Below are positions 5,580 through 17,491 of a stretch of 64,000 bases of DNA, in pieces. The first letter of the stretch is position 1, and the number at the start of each line of letters is the position of its first letter. The notes below the pieces were generated by a model. That model had not been told where the DNA came from. It did not search any database and saw only the letters and a program-made list of their open reading frames with translations. A program made the translations under genes and the position numbers. Source of the stretch: Curtobacterium sp. ISL-83 (lineage in GTDB: Bacteria; Actinomycetota; Actinomycetes; Actinomycetales; Microbacteriaceae); the NCBI RefSeq assembly GCF_018613895.1, contig NZ_JAGGPH010000016.1, positions 1 through 64,000 on the forward strand, written 5' to 3'.

Positions 5580-6800
5580 TCAGCGGCCCGGCGCGGACCG
5601 CCGCGTCGCCACGACCTGCACCACCGCCGCCCCGGTCATGAGCACCGCCATCACGGCGCCCATCGCGAGCGCCGTGCCGCCGAGCAGCCCGGCCAGGGGC
5701 GTCCCGAGTCCCCCGAGTCCGAACGTCAACCCGCCCTGCAGCGCCGCCGCGGTCCCCGGGTGCGCTGCGCCGACGTGCTGGGTCCGCGTCATCGCCGCGG
5801 GGAGCACGAAGCCCCACGCGCCGGTCACGACCGCCAGGCAGCACCAGACCGCGACCGGCCCCCAGCCGCACAGTGCGGACACCAGGACCCCCGCCGCACC
5901 GGTCGCACCGACGGTGAGTCCCGCGGCGAGCAGCGTGTCCTCCGAGAACCGCCCGACGACCCGGCGGAACAACAGGGTCGTGATGATCATCATCGAGGCG
6001 TTCGTGGCGAAGACCAGGGTGTACAGCCCCTCGGAGAACCCGAACTCCGACTGGAACACGAACGAACTCGTGGCGATGTAGGCGAAGAACCCGATCGTGG
6101 ACAGCACCCCGGTCAGCACGTACGCACGGAACCGCGGGATCGCCATGAGCGTCCGGATGCGGTCCCAGTTGTCCCCGAGGCCCACGCCGCCCCGCCGCTC
6201 CCGTGGCAGCGTCTCGCGGAACCGCAGCAGCACGGTGACGGAGAACACCGTCCCGAGCAGCGCGAGCACGACGAACATGAGCCGCCAGGACCCGACCGTC
6301 AGCACCACTCCCCCGGCCAGGGGCGCGACCACCGGACCGATCGCGTTCAGCGCCGCCATCGTCCCGAAGACCTTGGCCATCCGCGGCCCCTCGGTGACGT
6401 CGGACACCATCGCCCGGCCGGCCACCGCACCGGCAGCCCCGGCGAGTCCCTGGAACACCCGGGCGATGACGAGCGTCACGATGTCCGGCGCGAGCGCGCA
6501 CCCGACGGACGCCAGCGCGAAGACGGCCGTGCCGAGCAGGAGCAGTGGCCGCCGTCCGATCCCGTCGCTCACCGGTCCGGCGAGGAGCTGCCCGATCGCG
6601 AAGGCCACCAGGAACGCCGTCAACGACAGCTGCACGGCACCGGCCGTGGTCCCGAGGTCGCGGGCGATCGCCGGCAGCGCCGGGATGTACATGTCGGTCG
6701 CGAAGGGCGACACCCCGACGATCAGCGCGAGCGGCACGATCGGCGGCAGCACGAGGTGGGTGGTCGGCTTCCGCAGGCGCTCCGTCGTCACCGCCGTCAC
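5580..6800 (-). CDS. Bcr/CflA-type drug:H+ antiporter (MFS)
   Basis: A 406-residue major facilitator protein with twelve predicted membrane helices. The DMYIPALPAIARDLG segment after helix 1 is the family signature, and GPVSDGIGRRPLLL is MFS motif A in the loop between helices 2 and 3. The family exports drugs such as bicyclomycin or chloramphenicol, and small peptides; the substrate here is not predictable. The GTG at 6800 is preferred because the sequence before it is Arg-rich and part of the ppc terminator lies just upstream; GGGG precedes it by four to five bases. Confidence 0.85.
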   Translation of the reverse strand: MTAVTTERLRKPTTHLVLPPIVPLALIVGVSPFATDMYIPALPAIARDLGTTAGAVQLSLTAFLVAFAIGQLLAGPVSDGIGRRPLLLLGTAVFALASVGCALAPDIVTLVIARVFQGLAGAAGAVAGRAMVSDVTEGPRMAKVFGTMAALNAIGPVVAPLAGGVVLTVGSWRLMFVVLALLGTVFSVTVLLRFRETLPRERRGGVGLGDNWDRIRTLMAIPRFRAYVLTGVLSTIGFFAYIATSSFVFQSEFGFSEGLYTLVFATNASMMIITTLLFRRVVGRFSEDTLLAAGLTVGATGAAGVLVSALCGWGPVAVWCCLAVVTGAWGFVLPAAMTRTQHVGAAHPGTAAALQGGLTFGLGGLGTPLAGLLGGTALAMGAVMAVLMTGAAVVQVVATRRSAPGR

Positions 6801-9692: not shown

Positions 9693-10382
9693 TCAGGCGG
9701 AGGCGGTCCCGCGGGCGTACGACCGCCGCCGCTCGTCGAGTTCGGCGAGGAGCCCGGCGTCGAGCACCTCGGCGAGTTCGACCTCGGCGATGACCCGCTC
9801 CTGCTCCTCGGCGCTCCACGGCGCGGCGTCGAGCTGGGCCCGGTACGTGGCGGTGAACGCCGCCGGGTCGGCGACCTGGTCGAAGATGCAGAAGAGGATG
9901 CCGTTCGTGTCGAAGCCGAACCGGTCCTCCAGCAGCCGTCCCATCGCGTCCCCGGCGGACAGGTCCCCGAGGTACCGCGTGTAGTGGTGCGCCACGAAGC
10001 CGCCCGGCGAGGTGGCCGCGACGTCGTTGAGGCGTCGCACGTACGTCGTCGTGGCGGCCGACGGGCAGACGAGCTCGGACCAGTCCGGGCCGATGAGGTA
10101 CTCGAGGTCCGCGCGGATCGCCGGCATCCGGGTGAGCTGCGGCGTGACGAAGGGCGCCACGACCGGGTGGTCGGCCATCCGGTCGGCGGCCCGCTCGAGC
10201 GCGTCGTACACGAAGGCGTACTGGCCGAGCAGGGCCGCGTAGTCGGCGACGTCGCAGTTCCCGGCGAGGAGGTCGGTCATGAAGTCGTTCCCCGCCGTGG
10301 CGCCCTGCGACCGGCGCCCCTCGGCCTGGAGGAGTCGCTGGGCCCGGAGCAGTTCGGAGAACGGGACGACGGGCGATGTCAT
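9693..10382 (-). CDS. heme oxygenase homologue lacking the proximal His
   Basis: A 229-residue protein of the biliverdin-producing heme oxygenase family, which opens heme to release iron, CO and biliverdin. The distal-helix signature HHYTRYLGDLSAGD (about residues 135-148) is intact. In the family the proximal heme ligand is a His eight residues before the conserved F(M)xDLL motif. Here that position is Gln (SQGATAGNDFMTDLL) and no His occurs in the first 70 residues. Heme binding may use another ligand, or the protein may no longer turn over heme. The start is covered by an iron box (10382-10400), consistent with iron-responsive expression, and TAGCCT lies six bases upstream, so the transcript is probably leaderless. 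Confidence 0.88.
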   Translation of the reverse strand: MTSPVVPFSELLRAQRLLQAEGRRSQGATAGNDFMTDLLAGNCDVADYAALLGQYAFVYDALERAADRMADHPVVAPFVTPQLTRMPAIRADLEYLIGPDWSELVCPSAATTTYVRRLNDVAATSPGGFVAHHYTRYLGDLSAGDAMGRLLEDRFGFDTNGILFCIFDQVADPAAFTATYRAQLDAAPWSAEEQERVIAEVELAEVLDAGLLAELDERRRSYARGTASA

Positions 10383-10400
10383 GAGGTAAGGCTAACCTCA
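10382..10400. promoter_or_regulatory. DtxR/IdeR-type iron box
   Basis: TGAGGTAAGGCTAACCTCA is a 19-bp palindrome close to the known IdeR/DtxR consensus TTAGGTTAGSCTAACCTAA. It overlaps the heme oxygenase -10 hexamer and start codon and lies 83 bp before the divergent siderophore-interacting protein gene. Repression under iron-replete conditions of at least the heme oxygenase gene is the expected outcome. Confidence 0.85.
10389..10394 (-). promoter_or_regulatory. -10 hexamer inside the iron box
   Basis: TAGCCT on the minus strand lies six bases before the heme oxygenase ATG at 10382 and is fully contained in the iron box. Confidence 0.6.
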
Positions 10401-10483
10401 GTAGGGCATCCGTCAACCAGGGAGCGCCGGGTGTCGCAGGAGATCCGAGTGTCACAGCAGATCCGAGAGGAACGTCGTCCCCG

Positions 10484-11353
10484 ATGAGCCAGGAGACCCC
10501 CGCCCCGAGCAGCGCGCGACCCGCTCGACCGCAGCACGTCTTCGTCGTCACCCGCACCGAACGGCTGTCGCAGCACATGGTCCGGGTCCACCTCGGCGGC
10601 CCCGCGTTCGACGCGTTCCTGGCCGGCGCGGACCCGGACCGGTTGGCGGCGACGGACCGGTACGTCAAGCTCCTCGTCGCGAAGCCCGGCCTCGGCCTGA
10701 CGCCCCCGTACGACCTCGACGCCCTGCGGACGCTCCTGCCGAAGGCCGACCTGCCCGCGCGGCGGACCTACACGGTGCGTGCCGTCGACGTCGAGGCGCG
10801 CACCATCGCCGTCGACTTCGTCGTGCACGGCGACGAGGGTCTGGCCGGGCCCTGGGCAGCCGCGGCGGTCCCGGGCGACACGATCGCCCTGTCGGGTCCC
10901 GGCGGCGGGTACGCGCCGTCGACCGATCCCGCGGTCACGCACGTCCTGCTCGGGGACGACAGCGCCCTCCCCGCGATCTCCTCGGCGCTCGAGGCGCTGC
11001 CGGACACCGCGAGGGGGGTCGCGCTCGTCGAGGTGGCCGGCCCGGACGACGAGCAGCCGCTGCGGCACCCGGCGGGGGTCGACCTGCGGTGGCTGCACCG
11101 CGACGCCCCCGGCGCCGAGCCGGGCACCCTGCTGGTGACGGCTGCTTCCGGGCTGGAGCGTCCCTCCCGGCCGGTCCAGGTGTTCGCGCACGGTGAGCGG
11201 TCCGCGATGCAGGCGCTCCGCCGGCTGCTGCAGGACGACTGGGGTCTCGAACGCGCGGAGCTGTCGCTGTCGGCCTACTGGGCGCGCGGTCGGGCCGAGG
11301 ACCGCTTCCAGCAGGAGAAGCGAGAGCCGGTCGGCACGATCTTCACCGCCTGA
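10484..11353 (+). CDS. siderophore-interacting FAD reductase (SIP family)
   Basis: A 289-residue flavoprotein of the ViuB/SIP family, which reduces ferric siderophores in the cytoplasm to release iron. Residues about 20-140 form the FAD-binding domain, with RRTYTVRAVD as the flavin-binding motif. Residues about 150-289 form the NAD(P)H-binding domain, with the typical C-terminal LSAYWARGRAEDRFQQEK. An iron box lies between it and the divergent heme oxygenase gene, so both are likely part of one iron-starvation response. AGAGGA lies 12 bases before the ATG, somewhat far for a ribosome binding site. Confidence 0.93.
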   Translation: MSQETPAPSSARPARPQHVFVVTRTERLSQHMVRVHLGGPAFDAFLAGADPDRLAATDRYVKLLVAKPGLGLTPPYDLDALRTLLPKADLPARRTYTVRAVDVEARTIAVDFVVHGDEGLAGPWAAAAVPGDTIALSGPGGGYAPSTDPAVTHVLLGDDSALPAISSALEALPDTARGVALVEVAGPDDEQPLRHPAGVDLRWLHRDAPGAEPGTLLVTAASGLERPSRPVQVFAHGERSAMQALRRLLQDDWGLERAELSLSAYWARGRAEDRFQQEKREPVGTIFTA

Positions 11354-12142: not shown

Positions 12143-13747
12143 TCACCCCAGCGGCATCCGCAACGCGCCGTCGTGGTCGTGCGTCCCGGTGGCCGTCGGA
12201 TCGGTGCGGAGCATGCGGTCCGCCGTCCGAAGCGACAGCGCCATGATCGTCAGCGCCGGGTTCGCGATGAGCGAGCTCGGGAAGACCGAGTTGTCGGCGA
12301 TCCACAGGTTCGGCACGTCCCACGAGCGCCCGTCGGGATCCACCACCGAGCGGTCACGGTCCCGGCCCATCCGGGCAGTGCCGATCGTGTGGGCGGTCCG
12401 CTCGAGCACGCGCACGTCGGTGCCTCCCGCCGCTTCGACGATGGCGGTCATGGTGCGGACCGCGTGCTGCTCGATGGCCCGCTCGTTCGCACCGGACGAG
12501 AACGTGACCCGGGCACGTGGGACACCGTGCTCGTCGCGCTCCTCGGCCAGGACCAGCTGGTTGTCCTCGGCGGGCAGGCACTCCGCGTTGATCCCGACTC
12601 CTGCGGTCCGGGGGTAGTCGCGCATCGCACGCACCAGCTCCGCACCACGGAGGCCCCCACCCCGCACCAGGGTGGTGGCGAACGTGAGCGGCTGCACCCC
12701 GAGGCTCTGGATCAGGTAGCCGCCGGCGAAGTCCGCACCGGCCGGGCGCACGAAGTCCTCGGTGATGATGGAGGACGGGTACCCGCGGTACGAGCGCATC
12801 GACTCGTCGAAGGTCGCCCACACCTGCGTCGCTCCGTGCGCGGTGAAGTTGCGACCGACCTGCCCGCTGCTGTTCGCCAGCCCCGTGTGGAGGAGCAGGC
12901 GCGGGGTCTCGACCCCGCCCGCGGCGAGGACGAGCGATCGGCAGCGCTGTCGGCGCTCCCGCCCACCGGACGTGTACAGGACGGCCTCGACCCGACCGGA
13001 CGCGTCCAGCTCGATGCCGTGCACGAAGGAGCGGGGACGGATCTCGGCCCCGAAGGCCACGGCGGCGGGCAGGTAGGTGGTGTCCATCGAGACCTTGGCG
13101 CCGTTGCGGCAGCCCTGGTGGCACGATCCGCACGAGACGCAGGCGTGTCGGAGGCCGTGGTGCTCCTGCATCCGGTCCTCGGTCGTCAGCGCGACGGGAG
13201 CGTCCACCGCGGTGATCCCGAGCGCCGCCGTCCCGCGGAGCATCATGTCCGAGGACGCGTTCCGCGCCGGCGGGCGCATCCGGTACCGGCGACCGGGGTC
13301 CCACGGGTAGTGCTCGGGACCGGCGACGCCCACGTCGTGCTCGACCCGCTCGATGTACGCGGTCAGTTCGGCGTGGTCGATCGGCCAGTCCTCGCCGCGG
13401 CCGGACTCGGTGCGGAGCCGGAGGTCGTGCACGCTCGGCCGCGGGGTGAACGCACCCCAGTGCAGGGTCGACCCGCCGACGCCCGTGCCGCTGTTGTTCG
13501 GGCCGAACGCCGTAGGGGCGTCGCCGCCGGAGAGTCGCTCGCTCATCCAGTTGATGTCGGCGGGGGCCTCGACCTCGTCGGGCAGGTGCTCCCCCGGCTC
13601 GGTGTTGTCGCCCGCCTCGAGCGCGACCGCCGTGAGGCCGGCGCGTGCCAGGCGTGCGAGCAGGGGCGCACCGCCCGCTCCCGTGCCGACCACGACCACG
13701 TCGACCACCTCGTCGTCGCCGTACCGGCGCTGCGTGTCGAGCTTCAT
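12143..13747 (-). CDS. GMC-family oxidoreductase
   Basis: A 534-residue FAD-dependent GMC oxidoreductase (choline/gluconate dehydrogenase-like). The FAD-binding GxGxxG motif is VVVGTGAGGAPLLARLA (about residues 18-34), followed by the acidic ribose-binding end VALEAGDN. The C-terminal catalytic pair lies in HTIGTARMG and in NPALTIMALSLR. A cluster CVSCGSCHQGCRNGAK (about 200-215) resembles the Cys-rich segment of membrane-linked gluconate 2-dehydrogenase large subunits. There is no Tat or Sec signal. The start overlaps the upstream fused gene by four bases (13744-13747), so the two proteins are co-translated and probably form a complex. Confidence 0.9.
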   Translation of the reverse strand: MKLDTQRRYGDDEVVDVVVVGTGAGGAPLLARLARAGLTAVALEAGDNTEPGEHLPDEVEAPADINWMSERLSGGDAPTAFGPNNSGTGVGGSTLHWGAFTPRPSVHDLRLRTESGRGEDWPIDHAELTAYIERVEHDVGVAGPEHYPWDPGRRYRMRPPARNASSDMMLRGTAALGITAVDAPVALTTEDRMQEHHGLRHACVSCGSCHQGCRNGAKVSMDTTYLPAAVAFGAEIRPRSFVHGIELDASGRVEAVLYTSGGRERRQRCRSLVLAAGGVETPRLLLHTGLANSSGQVGRNFTAHGATQVWATFDESMRSYRGYPSSIITEDFVRPAGADFAGGYLIQSLGVQPLTFATTLVRGGGLRGAELVRAMRDYPRTAGVGINAECLPAEDNQLVLAEERDEHGVPRARVTFSSGANERAIEQHAVRTMTAIVEAAGGTDVRVLERTAHTIGTARMGRDRDRSVVDPDGRSWDVPNLWIADNSVFPSSLIANPALTIMALSLRTADRMLRTDPTATGTHDHDGALRMPLG

Positions 13748-15090
13748 CGTCGTGCTCCCGTCGGTTCCCATGCTTCGCGCGATCCGGCGGAGAGGAGCTG
13801 GAAGCCCTGCTTGCGGACGCCGTCGCCGCCGTTCGCGAAGCCGTCGTAGTCGATCTCCGCCATGGTCGCTGGGTGCGCCAGCCAGTGCCGGACCAGGTCC
13901 ACGCTGGCGTCCTCGAACCACAGCCGGAGCTGCTCGGCCGTCATGGTCCGGCCGTCCGCGCCCGTGCCGGCGGCGACCTGGTCGAGCACGTCGGCCAGCT
14001 CGGTGCCCGGGTGGGCCGCGGCCGAGGCGACGGCGTCGAGCGCCGCACCGTACGCCTCCCGGTCGGTCGGCATGCCGTCGTGCCGCCACCCGTCGCCGTC
14101 CCCCGCCGCCAGCTGCGCGTCGACGCGCAGAGCCAGGTCGACCTGCGGGCCGTCCGGCTGGGGCACCACGATGCGCGCGACCGCGCGGAGCGTCTCGAGC
14201 TGGGACCGGGTGAGCACCTGCGGCTCGGCGGCGGGGTCGTCGGGCAGGGACCGGGCGGCGAGGGCCTTCCGGGTGCGGGCACTGACCCGCGGCGAGGCGA
14301 TCACCCGCGCCGTGCCCCGCGGCACGACCGGCCCGTGGTCGACGCGGTCGGCCCAGAAGCCGCCGATCGCCGCGGCGACCTCGTCCGGGCGTTCCCAGGG
14401 CAGCAGGTGTGCCGCACCCTCGATCACCCCGAGGGTGCCCTGCGGCCAGTGCGGGAGGGTCAGGTCGCGCTGGGCGTCGACGCCGAGGTCGCCGTCCTCG
14501 GCACCGGCCAGCACGAGGGCCGGGACCGGGTTCGGGGCGGCGCTGCCGGACCAGTCCTCACGGCTGCCGCGTTCGAGCCACGCACGCCACGCGGCCGGGT
14601 CGCTGCGTTCGACGTCGTCCAGGGCGGTGTCGAGCCGATCGGGAGGCAGCGTCGTGGCGGTGTTCGCGTCGACGAAGGTGCGAGCGTGCTCCGACGAGAT
14701 CGCACGTCCGGCGACCCAGCCGAGCATCTCGGTCCGACGGTCCTCGTCCATCGGCTCGGGTGCGAGCGGCGACGCGGCGAGCAGGACGACGGCACGCAAC
14801 CCGAACAGGCCGTTCGCGCCGGACATGGTGCGGTCGGCGACCACCGTGGCGATCTTCCCGCCCATCGAGTGCCCGATCAGCGCCCACTGCGTCGCACCGC
14901 TCGCCCCGATCGCGTGTTCGACGAGCACGGCCATCTCCTCGACCGTGGCGCCCGCGGATCCGCGGCTCGTGCCGAAGCCGGGCAGGTCGATCCCCACCAG
15001 GTCGAGCCGACCCGCCAGCCGGGTCCGGAGGAGCGCGAACTCCTCCGAGCTCGAGCCCAGGGCGTGGAGGCAGAACGCGGTGGCCGTCAT
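13744..15090 (-). CDS. alpha/beta hydrolase fused to gluconate dehydrogenase subunit 3-like domain
   Basis: A 448-residue protein with two domains in one open frame. Residues 1-250 are an alpha/beta hydrolase with nucleophile Ser75 in GHSMGG, a probable acid near AGAEDGDLG (198-201) and His228 in GAAHLL. Residues about 292-448 match the gluconate 2-dehydrogenase subunit 3 family (LTRSQLETLRAVARIVVPQP, LRLWFEDASVDLVRHWLAHP and DGFANGGDGV). Subunit 3 proteins normally carry a Tat signal and escort a GMC catalytic subunit; here the leader is replaced by a cytoplasmic hydrolase. The overlap with the GMC gene fits that partnership. TACAAC six bases before the ATG suggests a leaderless start. Confidence 0.85.
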   Translation of the reverse strand: MTATAFCLHALGSSSEEFALLRTRLAGRLDLVGIDLPGFGTSRGSAGATVEEMAVLVEHAIGASGATQWALIGHSMGGKIATVVADRTMSGANGLFGLRAVVLLAASPLAPEPMDEDRRTEMLGWVAGRAISSEHARTFVDANTATTLPPDRLDTALDDVERSDPAAWRAWLERGSREDWSGSAAPNPVPALVLAGAEDGDLGVDAQRDLTLPHWPQGTLGVIEGAAHLLPWERPDEVAAAIGGFWADRVDHGPVVPRGTARVIASPRVSARTRKALAARSLPDDPAAEPQVLTRSQLETLRAVARIVVPQPDGPQVDLALRVDAQLAAGDGDGWRHDGMPTDREAYGAALDAVASAAAHPGTELADVLDQVAAGTGADGRTMTAEQLRLWFEDASVDLVRHWLAHPATMAEIDYDGFANGGDGVRKQGFQLLSAGSREAWEPTGARR

Positions 15091-15173: not shown

Positions 15174-16181
15174 TCACCGGGCGTACGCGTCGACGAAGAG
15201 CGGCCCGCGCAGCTCGCGCAACGTGTCGACCAGGCGCTCGATGGTCCGCGCCGAGATCCCGGAGACCTGGAGGTCGTACGGTCCGAGCGCGGGCAACCGC
15301 CCGGTCCGGATGCGGACGACCTCCCACCCGACGCCGCGGACCGCGCGGTCCTTCCGGCGGTCGGTCTCCTGGCGTGGACCGACGTGCTCCAGCCCGTGGC
15401 GTCCGGTGGAGTCGTACTCGATCGCGACGCGGAGCTCCGGCAGGATGATGTCGGGCCAGGCCTCGACGTGGTCGAAGAACGGACGGTCCAGTCGGATGGC
15501 CGTGTGGTCGAACGTGAAGGCGAAGCGGTCGGACAGCGCGGCCCGGAGCTCGGCCTCCACCGCGGAGGCCGTCGCCGGGGCGCACGCGCTCGGGAACGAC
15601 TCCCCCGACGGCAACCGCGGGGTCTTCGGACAGATCGTCCGCTGCACTGACTGACCGGTGCCGCCGCCGCGTGCCGGAGCCCGGCCGATGCTGCCCGGCG
15701 AACGACCGGAACGGCCGGACCGCGTCGCACGGGTCGACGGCACCGCTCCCGACGGTCCGGAGGGGACGCCGCGGGACGGGGCCGCGGGCAGGGTCTGGCG
15801 GCCGACGGTCCGGACCGCTCGCTGCGGCACCGGGACCGCTTCCGGCCAGTCCTCCGGCAGGACGGGCCACCGCTGGGGTTTCGCCTGGACGGCGCACTCC
15901 GGGCACCAGACCGATCGGCGGCGCTCTCGGCCGGGACGGGACCGCTGTTCGGCCGGCGTCGCGACGAAGACGTGGCCGACGTCGCACTCCCAGGTCAGCA
16001 GGACCTCGGCCACGGGCGGTACCTGGCTGAGCACCACGCCGTGGTTCCAGTCCGGGTGGTACTGCCGGATCAGCACCGGCCAGGACGCCCACTCCGCGCG
16101 GAACTCCCCCACGGCGTACGGGACGGCGGTGCCGCGCGACCACTGCCGCCGGCGCCACCACGCATCGACGGGTTCGGCCAC
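15174..16181 (-). CDS. treble-clef zinc finger / Vsr-like nuclease protein
   Basis: A 335-residue protein. The N-terminal third carries a WxCxxGH...CPxC finger (C66, H70, C93, C96), like the treble-clef fingers often joined to nuclease domains. A low-complexity Pro/Arg/Ser linker (about 105-210) follows. Residues about 215-335 resemble the DUF559/very-short-patch-repair type PD-(D/E)xK fold: WPDIILPELRVAIEYDSTGRHG, then a Lys in DRRKDRAV and GWEVVRIR. This suggests DNA binding and cleavage but is not proven. The GTG at 16181 was chosen because TAGCGT lies seven bases upstream; a GTG at 16211 is also in frame. Confidence 0.72.
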   Translation of the reverse strand: MAEPVDAWWRRRQWSRGTAVPYAVGEFRAEWASWPVLIRQYHPDWNHGVVLSQVPPVAEVLLTWECDVGHVFVATPAEQRSRPGRERRRSVWCPECAVQAKPQRWPVLPEDWPEAVPVPQRAVRTVGRQTLPAAPSRGVPSGPSGAVPSTRATRSGRSGRSPGSIGRAPARGGGTGQSVQRTICPKTPRLPSGESFPSACAPATASAVEAELRAALSDRFAFTFDHTAIRLDRPFFDHVEAWPDIILPELRVAIEYDSTGRHGLEHVGPRQETDRRKDRAVRGVGWEVVRIRTGRLPALGPYDLQVSGISARTIERLVDTLRELRGPLFVDAYAR

Positions 16182-16188
16182 GCCGGTG

Positions 16189-16194
16189 ACGCTA
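16189..16194 (-). promoter_or_regulatory. -10 hexamer, nuclease-like gene
   Basis: TAGCGT lies seven bases before the GTG at 16181 and 30 bases after the RES gene stop, giving the nuclease gene its own promoter. Confidence 0.5.
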
Positions 16195-16223
16195 CGGAGC
16201 ACCACCGACACTCGGACGGCCGG

Positions 16224-16892
16224 TCAGTCCGCCGGCGGCGTCGCGAACGTGAACCGTTCCGGACCGGACTCCGCGCCGTCGTCGAGCACGCGGATGCCGG
16301 ACTCCCGGCAGGCCGTCACGCCGTCGCGGTGCACCCGTTCCGGGCGCGGACGCTTCGGGATGCCGGCCGCACCGAACACCGCCCACGCGTTCGCGGCCGA
16401 GGCGCTCGTGAAGCGCGTGCTGTAGCGGACCCCGGCGAACCCGGCGGCGTCGAACGCACGCGCCCAGGCCTGCGGCACCCGGTAGTCCCCCATGGTCTGC
16501 AACTCGGCCCCGACGCCGAAGCGGACGGCGGAGGGGTGCGTGACATCGGCGAAGCGTCGGCCCCGGGAGGCCCGCGCCGCGACGACGACCATCTCGCGCG
16601 CCCGCGCCGCGAACACCGTGTTCGTGGTGAGCACGTGGTGCGCGAGCCGTTCCCGCACCGCGACCTCGACCGCGTCCGCCCAGTAGCAGGTACCGCGTGG
16701 GACGGCGAGGTCGAAGCGTCCGCCGTCGACCCCGTCGGCGTCCGGTTCCGTGCTCGCGAACCACCATGCGCCGCGGTCGTGGCGCTTCGCCCGGTAGAAC
16801 GTGGTCCCCCGGGACTCCTCGGCGGGGAAGTCCGCCAGGTCGAGGTCGTCGCGCGGGGCGCGCTGTGCGACCTCGTTCCGGCTCGGCGTCAC
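16224..16892 (-). CDS. RES-domain toxin (NAD+-degrading)
   Basis: A 222-residue RES-domain protein. Family toxins deplete NAD+ by phosphorolysis or hydrolysis, with conserved Arg, Tyr, Glu and Ser residues. Visible matches are FYRAKR (about 34-39), WWFAST and GGRFDLAVPRGTCYWAD, AVEVAVRERLAHHV, and GFAGVRYSTRFT near the C-terminal side. The GTG start overlaps the antitoxin stop by four bases (16889-16892), the usual coupling for such pairs. Activity is inferred from family membership. Confidence 0.85.
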   Translation of the reverse strand: MTPSRNEVAQRAPRDDLDLADFPAEESRGTTFYRAKRHDRGAWWFASTEPDADGVDGGRFDLAVPRGTCYWADAVEVAVRERLAHHVLTTNTVFAARAREMVVVAARASRGRRFADVTHPSAVRFGVGAELQTMGDYRVPQAWARAFDAAGFAGVRYSTRFTSASAANAWAVFGAAGIPKRPRPERVHRDGVTACRESGIRVLDDGAESGPERFTFATPPAD

Positions 16893-17491
16893 GCGTCCGC
16901 CGCCCACGCGTGCGCAGCGCGGCGGGCAGCAGCGAGCACCTGTTCTTCGCGACCGTCGCGGAGCGCCTGGGCGGCCGTCGTCCCGCCGAACTCGTCGGCG
17001 ACGGTGTTCAGCCACAGCGCGCTGCCCCACGGGTCGATGCGGTCCGGGTCGATGAGCGCCAGGACCTGCCGGAGGTTCGGGAGCGGTGCGCCGGAGGCCC
17101 CGAACTGGAACGACGGGAACACCAGGCTGCCGTCGCCGATCTTCAGCCCGATGAGGTCGCGCTTCGCCGTCGCCTTGCTGAGCGCCTGCCGCGTCACACC
17201 GCGCCACGCGGCCAGGGTCGGGGTGTCGTAGAACGGGCCGATCAGAACGTCCGCCTCGTGCTTGACCGCGGGCAGGGACGCCACCATGCGGTCGGCGAGC
17301 AGGTCGACGTCGGCCCCGTCGTCGAGGGCGCCGTCGGCACGACCGTCGAGGATGCGGCGGCGGAGGGCGGCGAGGAGCGCGTCCTCGGTCCGGGTGAGCG
17401 TTGCGCGCTGCCCCGGTGCGCGCTGCCCCGGTGCGTCGTGCGTGGCCCGCTGTGTCTGCGCCGTTCGCTGTGTCTGGCCGGTCGTGGTCAT
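16889..17491 (-). CDS. Xre/MbcA/ParS-type antitoxin for RES toxin
   Basis: A 200-residue protein. The N-terminus is a Gln/Arg/Thr-rich stretch with a duplicated APGQR (from a 14-bp DNA duplication near 17410). A central helix-turn-helix, TLAAWRGVTRQALSKATAKRD, and the C-terminal DPWGSALWLNTVADEFGG and AAQALRDG match the Xre-MbcA-ParS toxin-binding family (DUF2384). The antitoxin should neutralise the RES toxin and repress the operon. AAGGGTGG lies about seven bases before the ATG at 17491. Two 16-bp repeats upstream are probable operators. Confidence 0.82.
   Translation of the reverse strand: MTTTGQTQRTAQTQRATHDAPGQRAPGQRATLTRTEDALLAALRRRILDGRADGALDDGADVDLLADRMVASLPAVKHEADVLIGPFYDTPTLAAWRGVTRQALSKATAKRDLIGLKIGDGSLVFPSFQFGASGAPLPNLRQVLALIDPDRIDPWGSALWLNTVADEFGGTTAAQALRDGREEQVLAAARRAAHAWAADA

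Follow-up and report, generated by a model that had tools for sequence, protein, structure and literature searches.

The reaction of glucose dehydrogenase dependent on flavin adenine dinucleotide (FAD) is lactone-forming, and we take the small subunits of the Burkholderia enzyme and of fructose dehydrogenase to be members of the gluconate 2-dehydrogenase subunit 3-like (DH3) family. One report on the Burkholderia enzyme (PMC9727119) describes the small subunit as a hitch-hiker in export with a stabilising effect on the catalytic subunit; the latter binds a 3Fe-4S cluster through cysteines, and its nearby Cys213 forms an inter-subunit disulphide with Cys152 of the small one. Here, a gene of Curtobacterium sp. 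ISL-83 (Microbacteriaceae, Actinomycetota) is described in which a DH3 domain is fused to an alpha/beta hydrolase, and which overlaps the gene of a flavoenzyme of the GMC family. It lies in the window, i.e. the whole analysed stretch of 64,000 nucleotides (assembly GCF_018613895.1, contig NZ_JAGGPH010000016.1, positions 1 to 64,000 of the forward strand). Each of the three families involved (DH3, GMC and alpha/beta hydrolase) is known, and the new part is the combination of hydrolase and DH3, of which no description was found among the literature matches listed (open-licence full texts).

The fused gene encodes 448 amino acids plus a stop, its translation contains no internal stop, and it shares the four bases ATGA with the GMC gene. 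A first-pass annotation of the window, made from the letters alone, had claimed both the single uninterrupted frame and the four-base overlap, and both were borne out. A search for the same domain pair in other genomes, which it had proposed, resulted in 80 fused loci, or 65 distinct ones including that of the window after removal of 15 places fetched twice; the genomes behind some of these 65 loci may coincide. The junction with the GMC gene reads ATGA in 51 of them, GTGA in 11, CTGA in two and TTGA in one. A GMC match follows in every fused locus examined, which among the 50 family genomes with the fusion covers the 35 that were fetched. The only frame breaks in relatives concern the GMC genes of L015 (identical to L111) and L029, and none was found for the fusion. 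An assembly chimera or a missed frameshift is ruled out for practical purposes, since the same continuous frame occurs in 65 distinct loci and the fusion is conserved in two phyla. The AlphaFold model of the whole fused protein reached a predicted local distance difference test score (pLDDT) of 89.1 and a predicted template modelling score (pTM) of 0.89.

In the evenly sampled genomes of the family, the full-length fusion was found in at least 50 of 299, own genome included, two of them carrying it as two pieces in one frame; within the genus, five of seven sampled genomes carry it. Since only the best few candidates per genome were scored (five in the family sample, eight in the Actinomycetota sample), all genome counts are lower bounds. 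A scan of named genomes added fusions in Curtobacterium, Sphingomonas and Pseudoxanthomonas, so that the fusion spans these three genera and other Microbacteriaceae; the nearest named rows to the window protein in the tree are from Curtobacterium. Among 299 Pseudomonadota genomes, at least five showed a DH3 match, four fused and one unfused. In the Actinomycetota sample (396 genomes), a DH3 match was present in at least 11 besides the own genome, and the nine of these read further (all except G325 and G660) showed no hydrolase match in the locus. For 15 Curtobacterium-type sequences (105 pairs), the median ratio of nonsynonymous to synonymous substitution rates was 0.29 for the hydrolase, 0.25 for DH3, 0.47 for the linker and 0.18 for GMC; by this measure, both halves of the fusion are under purifying selection. 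Judged from the sequences, the hydrolase-DH3 fusion is real and conserved in several groups of environmental bacteria.

Table 1. Positions of the fused gene, its partner and their functional sites in the window.
Feature	Positions	Strand	Basis
Fused alpha/beta hydrolase-DH3 gene	13744..15090	-	open frame, Pfam, 65 distinct loci including the window's
Hydrolase domain, residues 1-251	14338..15090	-	Pfam 7-241, AlphaFold model, Z ~30
Codon of predicted nucleophile Ser75 (GHSMGGK)	14866..14868	-	invariant
Codon of predicted acid Asp199	14494..14496	-	invariant
Codon of His228	14407..14409	-	invariant
DH3 (gluconate 2-dehydrogenase subunit 3-like) domain, residues 262-448	13744..14307	-	PF13618 relatives, hhalign
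GMC flavoenzyme, 534 amino acids, partner gene with ATGA overlap	12143..13747	-	Pfam, PDB matches
GMC cysteines 203, 206, 209, 213 (CxxCxxCxxxC), probable Fe-S ligands	13109..13141	-	alignment to fructose dehydrogenase

The first half of the protein matches Abhydrolase_6 (PF12697) with 59.3 bits (1.1e-15, cut-off 26.3), and its fold resembles solved esterases and an enol-lactonase with Z values around 30, the enol-lactonase 2xua being among the closest (Z 29.5). Nucleophile elbow, acid and histidine stand in the order of alpha/beta hydrolases. The complete triad expected by the first-pass annotation, with an acid near residue 199, was found as Ser75, Asp199 and His228. None of the three varies among the 26 proteins of alignment A1 or among the 80 fused rows (the 65 distinct loci); these rows had been selected for hydrolase domains of 200 residues or more, leaving the degenerate L061, L101 and L102 outside.

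For the second half, the label DH3 is weak on the window sequence alone (PF13618, Gluconate_2-dh3, 18.7 bits over residues 296-359, cut-off 23.4; no hit at E<=0.001 in a PF13618 search of the own genome) and was therefore firmed through relatives. At a lax E<=1, 24 of 26 homologous C-terminal domains match PF13618, the best with 1.2e-8; the unfused L066 reaches 56.1 bits, the fused G723 (seen as L097) 57.1, L102 27.1 (above the cut-off) and L101 15.2 (below it). A comparison of the domain profile with 19 conventional DH3 rows by hhalign, from which the fused L146 and rows under 90 residues were omitted and in which L143 had no placed domain, gave a probability of 97.8 and an E of 9.4e-13. Furthermore, the GMC partner gene adjoins the DH3 domain, as in members of PF13618. 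The proposed subunit 3-like domain can thus be retained.

The frame of the window opens with the hydrolase and shows no twin-arginine translocation (Tat) signal, and none was detected in the fusion set of 63 rows, of which 57 are fused and the others are cut or unfused hydrolases, in agreement with the predicted lack of an export signal. The rule applied is crude, considers the first 60 residues and also flags two of 59 GMC starts, probably falsely. With the same rule, a Tat-like signal was found in 21 of 28 conventional Pseudomonadota DH3 loci (34 listed, 30 fetched, one without a placed domain, the fused L146 left out) and in none of the ten unfused DH3 proteins tested from the closest cousin cluster; two Deinococcota DH3 proteins also start without it, judged by eye. 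The idea that the hydrolase had replaced a Tat-bearing end was rejected as history, since unfused, Tat-less DH3-GMC pairs exist.

The GMC partner matches GMC_oxred_C (1.7e-25) and GMC_oxred_N (2.9e-17), and its closest PDB chains (6a2u, 8hdd, 8k6k and 7w2j) are FAD-glucose and fructose dehydrogenases. His453 is present in 76 of 76 readable fused rows and Asn496 in 61 of 61; we assume that they form the catalytic His/Asn pair. In the alignment, Cys203, Cys209 and Cys213 coincide with three of the four cysteines that fructose dehydrogenase has in this stretch. Among 95 GMC rows (some loci twice), 71 read CCCC at the four positions, 13 CRCC, three CACC, two CSCC, and six lack all cysteines; 203, 209 and 213 are thus jointly kept or jointly lost. 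Position 206, which varies alone, would fit a facultative fourth ligand, and the assignment of the Burkholderia cysteine roles to individual numbers of the window protein is our own putative mapping. The enzyme is probably an FAD- and Fe-S-containing sugar or polyol dehydrogenase. The term oxidase used before is not borne out: the closest solved relatives are Fe-S dehydrogenases, and the three probable cluster cysteines are kept in all but the six rows mentioned. In the GMC genes of L122-L126 and L102, all Fe-S cysteines are gone together, hinting at a different electron acceptor.

The fusion, the intact catalytic residues, the conserved partner, the lack of a recognisable export signal and the kinship to sugar dehydrogenases can be read together as a two-gene cytoplasmic module, for which we infer docking, an Fe-S cluster, a substrate, an order of steps and a coupling. 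By homology to the small subunit of the Burkholderia glucose dehydrogenase, the DH3 domain would act as an accessory subunit docking beside the Fe-S site, and would bring the predicted active serine hydrolase to the dehydrogenase, both proteins being made in step if the ATGA overlap causes translational coupling. Oxidation of the anomeric carbon by the GMC enzyme would turn a sugar into a lactone, which the tethered hydrolase would then open to the acid, thereby pulling the reaction forward. The lactone route is the best guess because the GMC protein resembles a lactone-forming glucose dehydrogenase and because neighbourhoods elsewhere are sugar-related. The enol-lactonase 2xua and PcaD/PcaDC among the matches of the hydrolase, the grouping of the unfused parts with sugar genes in L066 and an MR/MLE-type gene near the cousin DH3-GMC pairs also speak for it. 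We hold this reading of the whole module tentatively and put its chance somewhat short of even. The more specific idea of a subunit 3 turned enzyme, i.e. a cytoplasmic dehydrogenase-lactonase complex which converts sugar directly to acid, with the docking domain placing the lactonase by the flavin/Fe-S subunit, is possible, with the balance leaning against it. That the fusion ties two steps of sugar breakdown together is likely.

The neighbourhoods were surveyed in 56 loci with our own simple gene caller, the cluster labels originating from one or two scanned representatives. In Curtobacterium, the two-gene unit occurs in at least three different gene contexts. A trehalase-like gene of glycoside hydrolase family 15 (GH15) was found near seven of 35 fused loci, three of six loci with unfused hydrolase (L066 counted) and five of 13 unfused DH3 loci. 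The own genome contains two GH15 genes in 3.6 Mb, so that by our own arithmetic roughly one per hundred 14-kb stretches would be expected by chance, if other genomes are alike. A gene of the short-chain dehydrogenase/reductase (SDR) cluster is present in 20 of 35 fused loci, which is weak evidence because SDR genes are abundant; in L123, L124 and L125, an SDR gene overlaps the fusion start by four bases. Gfo/Idh/MocA genes lie near L055, L062 and L066. Altogether, the neighbour genes elsewhere (GH15 trehalase-like, SDR and Gfo/Idh) point to oxidative sugar metabolism, and none of them stands beside the window gene.

Several observations weigh against the proposed lactone route. A GH15 linkage in the window itself was considered and dropped, since the nearest such gene on the contig of the window lies about 137 kb from the fusion, and the three Curtobacterium loci of the 35-locus set show no SDR, GH15 or Gfo/Idh neighbour. 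The MR/MLE-type gene is near none of the 35 fused loci; it is present in eight of the 13 unfused DH3 loci, which suggests that the pathway of these cousin DH3-GMC pairs leads on to a sugar acid (the representative scores 199 bits with Pfam MR_MLE_C, and its NCBIfam matches, all below cut-off, bear the names of sugar-acid dehydratases). The isolated DH3 domain model (pLDDT 83.6) gave no credible match in Foldseek (best E 1.7) or VIA-align (best Z 3.8), and the DH3 sequence profile found no PDB chain below E 0.67; such a failed match is no proof that the domain folds differently from the solved small subunits. Esterases, haloperoxidases and C-C hydrolases score much alike as fold and family matches of the hydrolase, and since they and the enol-lactonase match about equally, the fold alone names no substrate. 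The strongest evidence against this route is the separate survival of each half. The lone hydrolases L062, L063, L064, L099 and L100 keep the triad and have no DH3 or GMC in their loci, and no DH3 match was found in the genomes of the first three. Conversely, L102 carries a Gly in place of the nucleophile Ser and L101 has lost the stretch with acid and histidine, both retaining DH3 and a full-length GMC. Each activity can thus exist without the other. Of the hand-over between hydrolase and oxidase in one complex that was suggested initially as a possibility, the tethering to a dehydrogenase persists as the natural reading, and an obligate hand-over is weakened by the lone hydrolases and by L101 and L102.

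These cases speak for a rival explanation in which both proteins serve the same pathway with no hand-over, the hydrolase acting in a step linked with the neighbouring SDR and GH15 genes and the fusion only co-regulating or stabilising the two proteins. The five lone hydrolases are accompanied by an SDR-cluster gene in five of five cases and by a GH15 gene in three of five, and L064, L099 and L100 stand inside fused clades. Against it, the nearness to SDR genes counts for little given their abundance, and the fusion occurs in 50 of 299 sampled genomes of the family as well as in a second phylum, both halves being under purifying selection. We regard this explanation as somewhat unlikely.

A reverse order of the two steps, in which ester cleavage by the hydrolase (on an acylated or feruloylated glycoside) releases an alcohol or sugar and the docked GMC enzyme oxidises the released alcohol, appears unlikely. 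Curtobacterium is plant-associated, leaf isolates are found among the fusion carriers (titles Leaf20 and Leaf183), and the best PDB sequence match of the fused protein is 7dq9, titled type-A feruloyl esterase. However, the identity of 26% in the fold search is too low to assign a substrate, and the scan of a few neighbour families, a thin test, gave no sign of a phenolic pathway. An oxidation at C3 of a glycoside, with the hydrolase acting on a later product, would agree with the three Gfo/Idh/MocA neighbourhoods and with the GMC glycoside 3-oxidases described in soil bacteria (PMC10646112; also PMC11673046, on Microbacterium), but is quite improbable, as the matches of the GMC protein to glucose and fructose dehydrogenases (1.1e-43 and 2.1e-40) far exceed that to pyranose oxidase (1.5e-11).

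Returning to the lactone route, the history of the fusion bears on the need for coupling. In a tree of 57 hydrolase domains (midpoint-rooted, without the distant paralogue L002, duplicates and close Curtobacterium copies), the six lone hydrolases are scattered, and at least five changes of state are needed to account for the starred branches. L064, L099 and L100 nest in starred clades whose other members are all or mostly fused. The simplest reading of this topology would be that, once fused, hydrolases lost their partner on more than one occasion; the direction of change is uncertain because of the midpoint rooting and the long branches of L066, L099 and L100. Losses on either side represent natural experiments on the need for coupling. 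In L061 of Curtobacterium sp. MCBD17_032 (6001-6600, plus strand), residues 158-405 of the fusion are absent in frame, and a full-length GMC match lies alongside. In L066 from the Deinococcales, a DH3 gene (452-1141), an overlapping GMC gene, a Gfo/Idh oxidoreductase, a GH1-type protein and a hydrolase (5699-6475; 37% identical) are separate genes within about 6 kb. A second Deinococcota contig carries DH3 and GMC unfused and ends too early to judge the hydrolase; such a DH3 occurs in only two of 111 Deinococcota genomes.

Unfused Tat-less DH3-GMC pairs comprise L087-L094, L098 and L103-L106. In L094 (8074-9339, plus strand), DH3 and GMC form one continuous frame, a direct fusion, with the contig ending within GMC. 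In eight of these 13 loci (L087-L090, L092, L094, L103 and L104, not L091 and L093), a small, probably membrane-spanning protein of about 136-171 amino acids precedes the pair; one was scanned and had no Pfam match, and a role as membrane anchor is possible. It is near none of the 35 fused loci. Its gene was found in 13 of 120 genomes, among them G087 with a lone hydrolase, and none of the 13 belongs to the 50 of 299 fusion genomes; as the expected overlap is only about two, mutual exclusion is not claimed.

Some further genes deserve mention. Dps and ferredoxin reductase genes lie near a few loci and bear on a possible link to general stress; in the main text of a paper on Sphingomonas stress genes (PMC6599016), the term GMC does not occur. 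In the window, a gene at 15174-16211 (minus strand), 83 bases upstream of the fusion, has two weak matches below cut-off, one to the DUF4379 zinc finger and one of endonuclease type at its end, and has a relative at the same place in several Curtobacterium loci. An RES-domain gene lies at 16224-17491 (minus strand; 3.5e-10) with a small overlapping upstream open reading frame lacking a Pfam match; together they resemble an antitoxin-RES toxin pair. At 9693-11353, a heme oxygenase gene (1e-42) is divergent from that of a siderophore-interacting protein (1.5e-34), possibly an iron-supply pair.

A Tat-less DH3 domain fused to a conserved hydrolase shows that this subunit family has another use, probably in the cytoplasm, and hints at the function of the associated GMC dehydrogenases. 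If the lactone route applies, it would be a natural two-enzyme fusion for sugar oxidation coupled to lactone opening, which is relevant to the glucose-sensor enzymes of the same GMC group.

Compared to known systems, the hydrolase half resembles PcaD and PcaDC, which are alpha/beta hydrolases and rank among the best NCBIfam matches of the fused protein; PcaDC, the best match, is also fused to a second catabolic protein. The partner is a different one, and with 48.5 bits for TIGR02427 (cut-off 255.85) and 70.1 bits for NF051488 (cut-off 390), the scores are far below cut-off, so that membership in the PcaD 3-oxoadipate enol-lactonases was rejected. L066 is closer, since its GMC matches the fused-clade profile at 2.3e-256 (the profile contains the L066 row) and DH3 and a related hydrolase lie nearby, but its three parts are separate. 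The unfused Tat-less pairs share with the fusion the position of DH3 directly upstream of GMC, the lack of an export signal (ten tested) and frequent GH15 and SDR neighbours; they differ in that no hydrolase match is found in the locus, a small membrane-protein gene often precedes DH3, and their GMC proteins match the fused-clade profile at 1e-134 to 1e-154 (full-length) compared to <=1e-259 for fused loci with unbroken GMC. The FAD-glucose dehydrogenase of Burkholderia cepacia (alpha/gamma/beta; 6a2u, 8grj) and fructose dehydrogenase (7w2j) resemble the window module in the GMC subunit with matching Fe-S cysteines and in the small partner subunit beside it. No multihaem cytochrome c gene was found among the seven scanned neighbour genes of the window, a genome-wide search not having been made. 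In contrast to the small subunits of both enzymes, that of the window has no Tat signal, lacks the cysteine for an inter-subunit disulphide (its DH3 domain contains no cysteine at all, some fused relatives one to four) and carries a hydrolase predicted to be catalytic.

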